Assembly (NCBI GenBank): GCA_016280595.1
Contig: JAEEHB010000063.1
Coordinates: 1-39,072 of the forward strand
Direction: 5' to 3'
From: Clostridiaceae bacterium
GTDB lineage: Bacteria > Bacillota > Clostridia > Oscillospirales > Acutalibacteraceae
DNA: 39,072 bases
Shown here piece after piece: positions 32,640 to 38,781 of the stretch (the first letter of the stretch is position 1; the number at the start of each line of letters is the position of its first letter). The notes under the pieces are model-generated. The model saw only the letters and a program-made list of their open reading frames with translations. It made no database searches and was not told the origin of the DNA. A program made the translations under genes and the position numbers.

Positions 32640-32721
32640 AATTATGTATATGATTACATATCAATAATCGCTTTCGCCCGTATTTATGCGGCTGTAAGAA
32701 AGATATATGGAGGAAGTATAT

Positions 32722-33831
32722 ATGAAGTTTATCTGTAACACATTTGATTTATCTGAAGCCTGCCAGATTGTCCAGAGAGCGGCGTCTTCAAAGACAGCCC
32801 TTCCCTCAGTGGAAGGTATATTGCTGACTGCTTCTTCGGGCAAACTTACTCTCACGGGTTACGACCTTGAAATGGGCATAATCACCGAGATTCCCTGTTC
32901 TTCATCCGAAGAGGGCAAAATAGTAATAAACGCCCATATGCTCAGCGAAACTTTAAGAAAACTTCCTGCCGACTCCGTATCTGTTGACGCAGACGCAAGA
33001 CAGATTGCCACAATCGAAAGCGGCGAATTCAAAACCACGATAATCGGTATGAACGCCGAGGATTATCCCGAGCTTCCTTCGGTAAGCAGAGGATATGATG
33101 TTGAAGTAAGTCAGAATATCCTTAAAGATATGATCCGCAAAACCATCTTCTCGGCAGCTGTTAAAGACAGCAAAGTTGTTCACACGGGCGTGAAATTTGA
33201 AATAGAGCCCGGTCATATCCGCCTTGTAGCGGTAGACGGTGTGCGTCTTGCAATCAGAAATGAAAATATTGACTACAGCGGCGAAGAACTTACCTTCGTT
33301 GTGCCGGCAAAAACTCTTTCTGAAGTTATGAAACTTCTCAGCGACGAGGATGATAAAATCAAGATTTCCGTCGGCAACAGGCACATCACTTTTTCAATCG
33401 GCGCTTATTACATTATTTCAAGGCTGCTTGACGGCGAATTTCTTAACTATAAATCCGCTATTCCTTCGGCGGCAAAGACCATTGCAAAGGTAAACACCGC
33501 GCAGTTCCTCAGCAGTATTGACAGAACTTCGCTCATTATTACCGACAGAATCAAGAGCCCCATCAAGTGCGTCTTTTCAAATGACAGCATAGTGATGTCC
33601 AGTAACGCCTCAATCGGCGCGTCAAACGATAAGATTCCCGCCGAGATTACCGGCGATGACATCACAGTTGGTTTCAACAATAAATATATGCTTGATGCTC
33701 TTCGTGTGTGCGACACAGACGAAATCAAGATTATGCTCAACAGCCCCGTTGCCCCCATCCTTGTGGTGCCGGTAGAGGGTGATGAGTTTATCTTCCTTAT
33801 CCTTCCCGTGAGGCTCAAGAATGAAAATTAA
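32722..33831 (+). CDS. dnaN: DNA polymerase III beta sliding clamp
   Basis: A 369-residue clamp of normal length, with the three repeated clamp domains. Recognisable segments are KTALPSVEGILLTAS in domain 1, FVVPAKTLSEVMKLL in domain 2 and the C-terminal DEFIFLILPVRL that ends in the usual P-V/M-R-L motif. GGAGG lies 8 bases before the chosen ATG; an in-frame ATG 5 codons upstream overlaps that site. The S4-domain gene starts 11 bases before its stop. dnaA, its normal upstream neighbour, is replaced by recR. Confidence 0.97.
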   Translation: MKFICNTFDLSEACQIVQRAASSKTALPSVEGILLTASSGKLTLTGYDLEMGIITEIPCSSSEEGKIVINAHMLSETLRKLPADSVSVDADARQIATIESGEFKTTIIGMNAEDYPELPSVSRGYDVEVSQNILKDMIRKTIFSAAVKDSKVVHTGVKFEIEPGHIRLVAVDGVRLAIRNENIDYSGEELTFVVPAKTLSEVMKLLSDEDDKIKISVGNRHITFSIGAYYIISRLLDGEFLNYKSAIPSAAKTIAKVNTAQFLSSIDRTSLIITDRIKSPIKCVFSNDSIVMSSNASIGASNDKIPAEITGDDITVGFNNKYMLDALRVCDTDEIKIMLNSPVAPILVVPVEGDEFIFLILPVRLKNEN

Positions 33832-34060
33832 AGTCAAGGTTGTTCCGAAGCAGGAAATACATAAGAAGATAGACACGGATTTTGTAAAACTCGATTCTTT
33901 TCTCAAACTCAATGACGCGGTGCAGTCCGGCGGTCACGCGAAAGTGGTGATTCAGGGCGGCGAGGTGAAGGTAAACGGAGAAACCTGCCTTCAGCGCGGC
34001 AAAAAGATAAGAAAAGGCGATAGAGTGGAATTCGAAAGAAAAATCTATATAGCAGAATAA
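33821..34060 (+). CDS. S4-domain RNA-binding protein (YaaA/RlbA type)
   Basis: A 79-residue protein with a single S4 fold: FLKLNDAVQSGGHAKVVIQ and GEVKVNGETCLQRGKKIRKGD are the diagnostic segments. In Bacillus and Clostridia this small gene sits between dnaN and recF, and the same position is seen here. It may have a role in ribosome assembly, which is not established for this organism. The start overlaps the dnaN end, with GAGG upstream. Confidence 0.94.
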   Translation: MKIKVKVVPKQEIHKKIDTDFVKLDSFLKLNDAVQSGGHAKVVIQGGEVKVNGETCLQRGKKIRKGDRVEFERKIYIAE

Positions 34061-34090
34061 AAATATAAAAAGAGAGGAATGGTGATATAA

Positions 34091-35185
34091 ATGATTATTT
34101 CAAGCCATTCCTCTTTTAATTTCCGCAATTCGGAGCATTGCTCCATAGAGCCGCACCCCGAAATGAACATAATATACGGCGAAAACGGTCAGGGCAAAAC
34201 AAACCTGATTGAAAGCATCTGGATGATGACGGGTTTTTATTCATTCAGGGCGAGAAAAAATGTTCAGCTGATAAGGCAGGGGAGCGAGAAGGCGGAAATC
34301 AATACAAAATTTACCGCTTTCGGCAGAGAGCAGGAAGCATCTCTCGTTATCGGCAACAAAAAAGAACTTACATTAAACGGCGTAAAAGAGGAGAGCCCCA
34401 GGGCGATAATGGGCACCTTCCCGGCGGTAGTGTTTTCACCATCAACTCTCGGCATCGTCAGAGACGGCCCCTCCGAGCGCAGAAAGATGCTCGATATAGG
34501 CATAAGCCTCATAAAGCCGAATTACGCGATGCTGATGAGCAAATATATAAGAGTGGTCGATCAGCGAAATGTGCTCCTTCGCAAATTCGGTGACAGAAGC
34601 GCGCAGATGGCGGATTATTTTGCCCCGTGGGATGAAGAACTTGTGAAACTCGGCGCAAAGATTATAAAATACCGCCTTGATTACACAGAGAAACTTGCTC
34701 TCTATTCCGCAGAAATCTATGACGGCATAAGTTCCGGCAGAGAAAAATTTGAATTCTATTACGGCTTTTCGAAAGAAAACCTTGATGAAGAAGAAATTGC
34801 CATTCGCCTTAAAAAAGAACTCGAAAAAAATTTTGAGAGCGATATAAAAAGAAGTTACACGGGCTCGGGCCCGCACTCTCACGATCTGATTTTAAGCCTT
34901 GACGGCAGGGACGCAAGAATGTACGGCTCACAGGGTCAGCAGCGCTCCTGCGCACTTTCAATGAAACTCAGTGAAGCGCGCATCACCGAAAAGGTGACGG
35001 GGGAGAGCCCCGCCGTGCTGCTCGACGATGTGATGAGCGAACTTGACGAAGGCAGGCAGAAATATATACTCAACTTCCTTGACGGCAGGCAGGTTTTCAT
35101 CACCTGCTGCGAGCCCTCAACCCTGCTCAGAAAAGAAAAGGGCAAGGTTTTTGAGGTTAAAAACGGCGAAGTAAAAGAATTATAA
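34091..35185 (+). CDS. recF: DNA replication and repair protein RecF
   Basis: A 364-residue SMC-like ATPase. Walker A is GENGQGKT (30-37), the ABC signature region lies near GSQGQQRSCALSMKLSE, and Walker B is VLLDDVMSELDEGRQ. RecF binds gap edges and works with RecO and RecR, the latter encoded 2 kb upstream. GAGAGGAATGG lies before the ATG, about 30 bases after the S4 gene. In the standard cluster remB follows next; here a phosphodiesterase gene intervenes. Confidence 0.97.
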   Translation: MIISSHSSFNFRNSEHCSIEPHPEMNIIYGENGQGKTNLIESIWMMTGFYSFRARKNVQLIRQGSEKAEINTKFTAFGREQEASLVIGNKKELTLNGVKEESPRAIMGTFPAVVFSPSTLGIVRDGPSERRKMLDIGISLIKPNYAMLMSKYIRVVDQRNVLLRKFGDRSAQMADYFAPWDEELVKLGAKIIKYRLDYTEKLALYSAEIYDGISSGREKFEFYYGFSKENLDEEEIAIRLKKELEKNFESDIKRSYTGSGPHSHDLILSLDGRDARMYGSQGQQRSCALSMKLSEARITEKVTGESPAVLLDDVMSELDEGRQKYILNFLDGRQVFITCCEPSTLLRKEKGKVFEVKNGEVKEL

Positions 35186-35200
35186 CAAAGGAGAACGGTT

Positions 35201-35968
35201 ATGAGTTTTTCAATGTTTATCAAGATGTTCACAGCGTTTATAATGTCGGTTTTCACGGTGTTTTCATCTTCCGCGCAGGTTAAAATGATAGGCCACAGAG
35301 GCCACAGCATGCCTTACCCCGAAAATACCGCCATGGCATTTGAGCAGGCGGCAAAGCACGGCTTCGCCGGGGCTGAAACCGACGTGCGCGTGACAAGCGA
35401 CGGAGTTTATGTGACCAATCACAACAGCAGCGTTGTGCTCAAAGACGGCACAAAACTTGAAATTGCCGATAACACCTATGAGGCGCTCACCGCTCAGCCT
35501 CTGAAGCAGAGCAAAACTCTCAAGGATGTCTATCTCTGCACCTTCAAAGAGTATCTCGAAATAATGAGAGACAATGATATGATCTGCTTTATCGAGCTCA
35601 AAGGCGAGTTTGACGATGAGCAGATAAACGAAATATTCACCCTCGCGGGAGACGTATATACGCTTGACAAATGCATTTTGCAGTCTTTCGAATTCGAAAA
35701 CCTCGTGAAAGCGCACGAGCAGTTTCCCGACCTTCGCATAATGCTCACATACGGCGAAACGGACAAAAGTTATGTGAAATGCTTCGAATACGGCTTTTCA
35801 ATAGACGCCGACTACGCAGTGATTGACGAAGAAATGGTTGAAGCCTTCCACTCAAGAGGGCTCGAGGTCGCGGCGTACACGGCAAATGAACTCTTCGTGC
35901 TCAGTTACCTCAAATCGCTCGGTGTAGATTATATTGAATCCGACCTTCTCGGGGGAGCGTTTGCCTGA
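35201..35968 (+). CDS. Glycerophosphodiester phosphodiesterase
   Basis: A 255-residue GDPD-family protein. A hydrophobic N-terminal segment (about 4-24) may be a signal or an anchor. Catalytic signs are HRG (His32, Arg33), PENT with Glu41, ETDVR (Glu59, Asp61) and His74; the usual HD pair reads HN here. Later segments include FIELKGE and the final YIESDLL, close to the family end. Such enzymes release glycerol-3-phosphate from phosphodiesters of lipids or teichoic acid. AAGGAG precedes the ATG and the stop overlaps remB (TGATG), so it has been built into the origin cluster. Confidence 0.93.
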   Translation: MSFSMFIKMFTAFIMSVFTVFSSSAQVKMIGHRGHSMPYPENTAMAFEQAAKHGFAGAETDVRVTSDGVYVTNHNSSVVLKDGTKLEIADNTYEALTAQPLKQSKTLKDVYLCTFKEYLEIMRDNDMICFIELKGEFDDEQINEIFTLAGDVYTLDKCILQSFEFENLVKAHEQFPDLRIMLTYGETDKSYVKCFEYGFSIDADYAVIDEEMVEAFHSRGLEVAAYTANELFVLSYLKSLGVDYIESDLLGGAFA

Positions 35969-36228
35969 TGTATCTGCATATAGGAATGGATAAAATCATC
36001 ACCTATGATGAAATAATCGGCATATTTGACCTTGATACCACCACGGTCGAAAAAAACACGAGGGATTCCCTCGCAAACGCCGAAAAGGCGGGCATAGTTG
36101 AAAACGTCTGCAACGACCTGCCGAAATCCTTTGTCGTATGCGAAAAGGACGGCAAAAGAAAAATCTATATCACCCAGCTTACTTCGCAGACTTTGCAGAA
36201 ACGCCTTTCAAACCCGGTAGCGGAATAA
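35968..36228 (+). CDS. remB: RemA/RemB-family extracellular matrix regulator (DUF370)
   Basis: An 86-residue protein beginning MYLHIGMDKIITYDEIIGIFDLD, the family signature (given here in parts: MYLHIG, ITYDEIIGIFDLD). RemA and RemB are small DNA-binding regulators of biofilm genes in Bacillus. In B. subtilis remB (yaaB) lies just after recF and before gyrB. Here the gene is coupled to the phosphodiesterase stop and gyrB is missing. The symbol rests on position and signature. Confidence 0.85.
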   Translation: MYLHIGMDKIITYDEIIGIFDLDTTTVEKNTRDSLANAEKAGIVENVCNDLPKSFVVCEKDGKRKIYITQLTSQTLQKRLSNPVAE

Positions 36229-38041: not shown

Positions 38042-38046
38042 TAAAG

Positions 38047-38069
38047 AAGACGGGCAGTGAGCCCGTCTT
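38047..38069 (+). terminator. Terminator after the metallophosphoesterase gene
   Basis: AAGACGGGC pairs perfectly with GCCCGTCTT around AGTGA and is followed by TATCTTTT. Confidence 0.85.
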
Positions 38070-38080
38070 TATCTTTTCAC

Positions 38081-38126
38081 CCGCACACTCCACGGTGCGT
38101 GGGTGGATTTTGCGCGCCGTGTGTGG
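38081..38126. promoter_or_regulatory. Nested dyad upstream of the HTH-superoxide reductase gene
   Basis: An inner palindrome CCACG-GTG-CGTGG (38090-38102) is enclosed by CCGCACAC (38081-38088) and GTGTGTGG (38119-38126, one wobble). It lies 26 bases or more before the HTH gene start and could be an operator or an RNA hairpin. No convincing promoter was fixed in this gap. Confidence 0.4.
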
Positions 38127-38151
38127 TAAGTTATTATCAGGAGGCGAAGAA

Positions 38152-38736
38152 ATGGACAGATACGTAACCGGAGCCGTGATAAAAAGGCTCAGAGAAAGCA
38201 AAAAAATGACGCAGGAAGACCTCGCGGCAAAGATATTTGTCAGCGCCAAAGCGGTGAGCAAATGGGAAACGGGCGCCGGCTTTCCCGATATCAGCCTGAT
38301 TGAGCCGCTCGCGGAGGCGCTCGGCATATCCGTGATTGAACTGCTCTCGGGCAACAACATCACAAACCTCAACCGCTCGTCCAATATCACAAAGAGCGTG
38401 TTTTTCGTGTGCCCCGTGTGCGGCAATGTGATTGAGTCAACGGGCGAGGCGGTGGTCAGCTGCTGCGGCATCACCCTGCCGTCGCTTGAGGCGGAAGACG
38501 CGGACGAAGAGCATTCAATCATCGTTGAGAGCGCGGAGGACGAATACTATGTCACGGTGAATCACCCGATGACAAAGGAGCATTCTATCTCCTTCATCGC
38601 GGCGGTGTCGGACAGCCGCGCGCAGATTGAAAAACTCTGGCCCGAAGGAACCGCCGGAGCATATTTCAAAAAAGGCCACGTGAAATATATCTACGCATAC
38701 TGCAACCGTCACGGACTTTTCCGCATAAAAATTTGA
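38152..38736 (+). CDS. XRE-type HTH regulator fused to a desulfoferrodoxin/superoxide reductase-like domain
   Basis: A 194-residue protein. Residues 8-66 are a Cro/C1-type helix-turn-helix (KKMTQEDLAAKIFVSAKAVS then KWETG). Residues 85-110 match a desulforedoxin iron site: Cys87, Cys90, Cys104, Cys105 (CPVC...CC). Residues 118-194 match the neelaredoxin centre: His121, His138 and His144 in NHPMTKEH, Cys184 and His187 in YCNRHG, the five ligands of the Fe(His)4Cys site. The catalytic Lys of the EKH motif is Glu here (EEH). GGAGG precedes the ATG; an upstream extension of 19 codons lacks support. A redox-sensing repressor is the favoured inference. Confidence 0.85.
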   Translation: MDRYVTGAVIKRLRESKKMTQEDLAAKIFVSAKAVSKWETGAGFPDISLIEPLAEALGISVIELLSGNNITNLNRSSNITKSVFFVCPVCGNVIESTGEAVVSCCGITLPSLEAEDADEEHSIIVESAEDEYYVTVNHPMTKEHSISFIAAVSDSRAQIEKLWPEGTAGAYFKKGHVKYIYAYCNRHGLFRIKI

Positions 38737-38750
38737 TAAAATAAAAAACT

Positions 38751-38781
38751 GCCCCCTGCGGATTGACCGCAGGGGGCTTTT
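38751..38781. terminator. Bidirectional terminator
   Basis: GCCCCCTGCGG pairs perfectly with CCGCAGGGGGC (11 bp) around ATTGA. TTTT follows on the plus strand, and an A-rich run (AAAAAA) before it gives a U tract on the minus strand. It can end both the HTH gene and the convergent small gene. Confidence 0.9.

Follow-up and report, generated by a model that had tools for sequence, protein, structure and literature searches.

An XRE helix-turn-helix joined to a superoxide reductase-like iron module: a candidate metalloregulator at its own conserved promoter

Introduction

Many anaerobes rely on superoxide reductase (SOR), not on superoxide dismutase. The two-iron form of the enzyme, desulfoferrodoxin or 2Fe-SOR (Dx-SOR; 1dfx, 2ji1, TIGR00320), combines two iron modules held by nine ligands in a characteristic fold. 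Redox-active metal sites are coupled to DNA binding in SoxR, PerR, IscR and RirA, which rely on Fe-S clusters or on an iron site of the Fur type; to our knowledge no regulator of this type uses the Fe(His)4Cys centre of SOR, and we know of none that reads superoxide through an SOR-type centre. The XRE/Cro-CI autoregulators lambda CI, P22 c2 and DdrO place an N-terminal HTH_3 domain on a palindromic operator at their own promoter, and their tails are peptidase-like or all-helical dimerisation domains.

The closest described architecture is found in SORGOdb, which in 2011 named a class of 19 proteins, HTH-Dx-SOR, in which a helix-turn-helix (HTH) stands ahead of the Dx-SOR module (PMC3116461). 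The parts of that article covered here give no function, no remark on a lost Lys and no operator for the class, and no functional paper on it was found in a search of mostly open literature judged by titles, the starts of abstracts and passages. TrtA of Treponema denticola is an XRE regulator of 104 amino acids tied to the oxygen response; as described in passages of its report (PMC12724145), it has no recognised domain after residue 80 and, unlike the fused proteins, no SOR module.

The window analysed here, a stretch of 39,072 nucleotides from a Clostridiaceae bacterium, encodes such a fusion at 38152-38736. Its protein is a new member of the already named class HTH-Dx-SOR, and its architecture is one that had been described by 2011 (PMC3116461). 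The residue signature and the operator described below appear in no paper found by the literature search, as far as the passages and abstracts that it returned extend.

The Fused Protein and Its Modules

The gene lies on the forward strand and runs from an ATG at 38152 to a TGA at 38736, with a ribosome-binding site, AGGAGG, at 38139-38144. It encodes a protein of 194 amino acids, and the alignments of homologues to it begin at residue 1. The N-terminal HTH stands before the Dx-SOR module, the arrangement that defines the class. The XRE/Cro-CI HTH domain occupies residues 7-66 (38170-38349, forward strand), as delimited by Pfam HTH_3, which matches residues 10-64 (7.8e-12, 45.5 bits against a cut-off of 23), and by the helices of a structure model. 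The desulforedoxin-like module that forms centre I, residues 84-116 (38401-38499, forward strand), is placed by the TIGR00320 and phmmer alignments; PF06397, the Pfam model of the N-terminal desulforedoxin part, gives a weak match below its cut-off (0.3). The SOR-like module that forms centre II, residues 117-191 (38500-38724, forward strand), is matched above cut-off by Desulfoferrodox PF01880 over those same residues (2.6e-6, 28.3 bits against 22.2).

A single model, TIGR00320 of NCBIfam, spans both modules (residues 84-191, 3.4e-13). Its score of 49.9 bits is far below the equivalog cut-off of 146.9, which places the protein outside the desulfoferrodoxin equivalog. Among solved structures, desulfoferrodoxins are the closest in sequence (2e-9). 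The original prediction of an XRE HTH joined to both desulfoferrodoxin modules is borne out by these matches, and the translation, with codons checked, places all nine ligands where that prediction had put them. Centre I is provided with C87, C90, C104 and C105. By alignment, centre II has H121, H138, H144, C184 and H187, a complete Fe(His)4Cys set.

An AlphaFold2 model built from the window protein and 52 homologues (mean pLDDT 86.4, pTM 0.60) presents a five-helix head, with helices at residues 7-16, 21-28, 32-40, 47-57 and 61-66, followed by a beta tail. The recognition helix corresponds to about residues 32-40. The head matches the structures of P22 c2 and DdrO, and the tail matches the structures of desulfoferrodoxin and of the SOR of Treponema pallidum (E-values between 3e-10 and 7e-8, TM by target 0.71-0.79). 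Together with conservation, this fold match leads us to infer that the nine ligands cluster. The likeness to lambda CI, P22 c2 and DdrO ends with the head and the palindrome at the promoter, since the tail of the fused protein is a non-haem iron module.

A Residue Signature Separates Fused from Free Modules

Residues were counted in 119 fused proteins, 92 of them in a first set that includes the window protein and 27 fetched later. The first set was drawn from 113 loci, and entry to it required a match that starts no later than residue 6 and reaches at least residue 185; partial, split or HTH-only rows were left out (for example L038, L071, L072, L073, L076 and L077). The second set derives from 28 new loci among the 30 best class matches, hence chosen for likeness to the profile, and loses L242, a copy of L049. 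For comparison, 32 free proteins were used: L002, L078 and the 30 best free loci.

The ligands are strongly kept. C87, C90 and C104 are present in all 119 fused proteins, and so are H138, H144 and C184. C105 is found in 111, with His in the other 8, H121 in 112 and H187 in 105; centre II is not invariant, as H187 becomes Asp in 12 proteins and H121 is lost in 7. Within the first set, C87, C90, C104, H138, H144 and C184 are invariant in all 92 proteins, while C105 is kept in 90, H121 in 87 and H187 in 86. The nine-ligand set is complete in 100 of 119 (83 of 92 in the first set and 17 of 27 in the second). Homologues of the fusion lacking most ligands, the case named against the original prediction, were looked for among the 119 and none was found.

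Departures in the second set fall mainly on C105, which is His in 6 proteins, and on H187, which is Asp in 8, and all six proteins with C105H also have H187D. The two changes occur together in L244, L248, L250, L251, L254, L256 and L106, while L102 has C105H alone; judged from these alignments, a change at one iron site seems to be accompanied by a change at the other in such proteins.

The residues around the ligands are a different matter. Where desulfoferrodoxin has the EKH motif, the window protein reads E119-E120-H121, and the catalytic Lys by which a functional SOR is recognised is replaced by E120 (codon 38509-38511, forward strand). In D. baarsii SOR, Lys48 forms a hydrogen bond to the iron-bound peroxide, according to a figure legend of PMC2824530. 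The exchange of this Lys for Glu, noted in the original prediction for one protein, proves to be family-wide: the Lys is kept in 2 of 119 fused proteins (1 of 92 and 1 of 27) against 31 of 32 free ones, and the Glu that precedes it in 43 of 92 against 31 of 32. Conversely, the loop between H138 and H144 has a Lys at position 142 (codon 38575-38577, forward strand), present in 117 of 119 fused proteins (90 of 92 and 27 of 27, with Arg in the other two) and in 1 of 32 free ones. C90 and C104 are separated by 13 residues in every one of the 119 fused proteins, whereas the 32 free proteins all have a spacer of 15. The published form of the desulforedoxin site, CXXC-X15-CC (passages of PMC3116461), therefore fits the window protein in its four Cys and differs in its spacer of 13 residues.

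Three side observations attach to this signature. The sole two fused proteins with Lys120, L106 and L254, fall in the C105H/H187D group. L078, of the Gastranaerophilales, is a Dx-SOR devoid of an HTH that lacks the EKH Lys and has Lys at 142 together with a 15-residue Cys4 spacer; counted as free, it is the sole Lys exception among the 32, and it could represent either an intermediate or a split-off. Finally, the spirochaete fusions L043, L047 and L053 have insertions of about 20-29 residues just ahead of H121, where the lid of the enzyme would be.

Since the ligands are kept and Lys120 is lost, selection acts on the metal cage but not on the canonical lid of the enzyme. Such a combination, read from alignments, favours sensing or an altered chemistry over ordinary turnover. 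The preference is tempered because the SOR of Ignicoccus hospitalis is reportedly active without the EKH Lys. For that reason, and because Lys142 marks the family, the original suggestion that the centre may no longer turn over superoxide is not supported by these comparisons.

Operator and Promoter

The region 38081-38126, proposed in the original prediction as the DNA bound by the protein, holds a strongly conserved operator-like palindrome. The putative operator, CCACG-GTG-CGTGG (family form CYACG-NNN-CGTRG), lies at 38090-38102 within an 18-base motif at 38089-38106. The upstream sequences of relatives share YCYACG-NNN-CGTRGGTNG: the 92 upstreams reduce to 90 distinct ones (two duplicates), and 84 of these have the motif at two or fewer mismatches, compared with 3 of 1800 dinucleotide shuffles. 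Upstreams of the second set have it at two or fewer mismatches in 17 of 27, at three in 9 and at five in one, and the right half of the operator reads CGTTTATTG in 6 of the 9 three-mismatch loci. The motif is absent at fewer than four mismatches from all 31 upstreams of free desulfoferrodoxin (dfx) genes.

A putative promoter adjoins the operator on the forward strand. The candidate −35 element, TGGATT (family TTGNNN), at 38104-38109, abuts the operator and occupies a fixed column in an ungapped alignment of 73 sequences. A spacer of 17 bases separates it from the −10 element TAAGTT at 38127-38132, which forms part of a putative extended −10, TGG TAAGTT (family TG-N-TATNNT), at 38124-38132. 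T39, A40 and T44 of the motif, which belong to the −10, are conserved in 83, 84 and 86 of 89 sequences. The 73 operator-promoter sequences, used from 84 segments to build the promoter profile, align over 50 columns free of gaps and come from clostridial and Treponema records. This promoter is absent from the output of a generic promoter scan.

One residue of the recognition helix varies with the operator. Where residue 32 is Asp, operator base 6 is other than G in 12 of 22 cases, and where it is another residue, in 5 of 67 (Fisher 9e-6, a statistic that ignores shared ancestry and the number of comparisons tried). Covariation of residue 32 with base 6 is what would be expected if the recognition helix reads the operator.

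If the −10 is right, the centre of the operator lies about 43 bases before the transcription start. Such a position is compatible with both activation and repression: the distance would fit activation of the lambda CI kind, and the overlap of the motif with the edge of the −35 would fit repression.

Gene Context

A terminator-like hairpin of the upstream gene lies at 38046-38070, and a strong one of 11 pairs follows the fusion gene at 38751-38777, both on the forward strand. These hairpins on either side suggest that 38152-38736 is a single-gene unit. Across the family, a same-strand downstream neighbour within 60 bases is found at only 10 of 84 loci, so the fusion gene is mostly a unit of its own. 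A fixed partner gene was considered and rejected, as clustering of up to three neighbours per side gave no family shared by more than 6 of 92 loci. Elsewhere in the window, 32707-36228 carries, in this order, dnaN (Pfam beta-clamp), a recF-like gene, a glycerophosphodiester phosphodiesterase gene (PF03009) and a RemA/B-like gene (PF04025, below cut-off); dnaN-recF-remB is a usual gene order.

The genome of the window also encodes a free desulfoferrodoxin with an intact EKH motif (L002). Among 52 genomes with the fusion, 31 give no free desulfoferrodoxin match above 50 bits. Replacement of the free SOR by the fusion was rejected as a general account, because 21 of 52 fused genomes and 73 of 148 others have a free SOR (p 0.33, in a count that includes incomplete genomes and three partial fusions).

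Distribution and Origin of the Fusion

The fusion is no assembly accident, because 91 further full-length proteins share it, three pairs among them being near-copies. A genome scan returned 76 loci, mostly the fusion and some with the HTH part only, in Clostridia-type bacteria, Treponema and other spirochaetes. Within the family of the window, 105 of 200 genomes give some match and 52 have the fusion, three of them in partial form (G071, G141 and G158). Across its class, Clostridia, 64 of 291 sampled genomes match at 1e-30, a few of them partially. Of 181 plasmid records with a match, 2 contain most of the query, at 36-40% identity, and one of these, NZ_CP154629.1, is 2.6 Mb long. One distant plasmid homologue adjoins a ZIP metal transporter.

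In a tree built from the Dx-SOR portion of 92 fused and 32 free proteins (124 rows, 109 columns), one branch with support of 100/97 divides fused from free modules; many inner forks of this tree are poorly supported and its bootstrap is not fully settled. The fused protein thus stands on the other side of the tree from the desulfoferrodoxins whose fold it shares. Given this one branch, the most economical explanation is that the fusion arose once. Spirochaete proteins do not form one group, at the poor resolution of the tree, which hints at transfer.

Search for Other Targets

Targets beyond the fusion gene were sought with the strict operator, with mismatch scans and with the operator-promoter profile, in 200 genomes of the family, in 35 of the 52 fused genomes and in the genome of the window itself. 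The strict motif occurs in 18 of 200 family genomes. Seven strict sites away from the fusion were examined: five (L148, L150, L152, L160 and L161) have no HTH frame directly after them and look like chance occurrences, L159 stands ahead of a different gene, and L146 corresponds to the truncated copy of the HTH. In the genome of the window, which is 78% complete, the operator occurs once at one or no mismatch, at the fusion gene; at up to three mismatches there are 22 places and 25 for the reversed control, hence no excess. The 35 fused genomes hold 52 places at one or no mismatch, 27 at a fusion gene (a count that includes L235, described below) and 25 elsewhere, and the latter do not exceed the 64 of the reversed control.

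The operator-promoter profile finds 30 places at E < 1e-3 in the 200 genomes, 29 at the fusion gene and one before a truncated HTH copy (G054). As 23 of the 73 training rows came from the searched genomes, the hits at the fusion gene arise partly by construction and it is the scarcity of others that is informative; 30 candidates were scored per genome under the stricter filters of Infernal, so that weak sites may have been missed. Scans of up to 200 family genomes thus detected no regulon beyond the promoter of the fusion gene and a few related XRE genes. The original prediction of a transcription switch is accordingly narrowed, as far as a switch for other genes is concerned, to the one target detected, its own promoter.

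The related XRE genes are informative in another way. L200, L201 and L202, XRE relatives with other tails, carry a similar operator upstream of their genes, and in L201 and L202 a −10-like element lies near the same place as in the fusion promoters. Hence the Dx-SOR tail seems to fill an exchangeable slot, and, to judge from the shared operators, these proteins and the fusion perhaps belong to a broader subfamily of HTH proteins that carry a self-regulated promoter with them. The tails of L201 and L202 have hydrophobic stretches by eye, and the end of L202 gives a weak zinc-ribbon match.

Two loci show the operator in other surroundings. At L235:1953-3420 (G025), operator and promoter stand before a gene of the chloramphenicol acetyltransferase family (PF00302, 4e-50) that directly precedes an HTH-Dx-SOR gene, as if in one operon. 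At L203:1077-1998 (G054) there are two tandem free desulfoferrodoxin genes, and a second operator lies about 7 kb away before a truncated HTH copy; nearby frames are presumably rubrerythrin-, ferritin- and glutathione-peroxidase-like.

A Model for the Fused Protein and Its Alternatives

As most relatives have the same short motif ahead of their own gene, the protein probably sets its own level according to oxygen stress or iron. We consider it somewhat more likely than not that it is an autoregulatory metalloregulator whose SOR-type iron site is the sensor. The XRE head would bind as a dimer to the single palindromic operator at 38090-38102 that abuts its own −35. The desulfoferrodoxin-derived tail would serve as the sensor, with its iron sites kept as ligand cages and the lid residues that drive superoxide turnover (Glu47 and Lys48 in D. 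baarsii numbering) given up. The trigger at the tail would be oxidation of Fe(His)4Cys by superoxide or peroxide, or a changed occupancy by iron. This change would then be passed through the dimer to its grip on the operator and so to the level of its own expression. Such a protein would work like SoxR, PerR, IscR and RirA, by analogy. Binding as a dimer, loading with iron and a signal read at the tail are predicted here, and the position of the operator would suit either activation or repression. The original prediction named superoxide or redox state as the possible signal; iron, peroxide and redox state fit no less well than superoxide.

The tail might instead still reduce superoxide, perhaps with K142 in place of the lost Lys, so that the HTH would only set the level of an enzyme. 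Trigger enzymes such as PutA and BirA provide a model for this arrangement. The complete ligand set in 100 of 119 fused proteins and K142 in 117 of 119 are what it would lead one to expect, as is the finding of operators only at the promoter of the fusion itself and before some related XRE genes; in the 31 of 52 fused genomes that show no free SOR, the fusion could be the only one. It is nevertheless rather unlikely, given that the lid has been relaxed at both positions (43 of 92 proteins have the Glu and 1 of 92 the Lys), that L043, L047 and L053 carry insertions of about 20-29 residues before H121, and that genomes with the fusion do not tend to lack a free SOR (one is present in 21 of 52, compared with 73 of 148 other genomes, p 0.33). 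That selection has kept ligands and not catalytic residues would also agree with a pure metal sensor, which would respond to whether its two sites are filled with iron (or the Cys4 site with zinc) and in which redox chemistry would play no part. The single case of a ZIP metal transporter beside a distant plasmid homologue points the same way. Against it, the loci have no neighbouring gene family in common beyond 6 of 92 and the scans detected operators only at the fusion promoter and before related XRE genes, and we regard this form of sensing as distinctly improbable.

The same scans bear on a classical regulator that governs an oxidative-stress regulon through degenerate operators. XRE regulators often bind weaker secondary sites, and such sites could have been missed in a genome that is 78% complete and by a profile search with 30 candidates per genome and strict filters. 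Near-operators are nonetheless no more frequent than in controls (22 against 25 in the genome of the window, 25 against 64 in the 35 fused genomes), and no operator precedes any of the 31 free dfx genes, which leaves a hidden regulon very hard to credit. The preferred reading is that of an autoregulator with an SOR-type iron site as its sensor.

Conclusions

The fused proteins have in common a residue signature in which the EKH Lys is out, K142 is in and the Cys4 spacer is shorter. They occur in 64 of 291 sampled genomes of the class, a few of them as partial matches. This occurrence, the signature, and an operator that is specific and stands at a constant distance from its promoter make the proposal directly testable with one protein and 60 bp of DNA. 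In its broadest form, which we hold tentatively and with some doubt, the proposal is that these proteins may constitute a large bacterial family of metalloregulators in which a retired superoxide reductase, its Fe(His)4Cys centre kept and its catalytic Lys moved or lost, would act as a direct sensor of superoxide or redox state at its own promoter.
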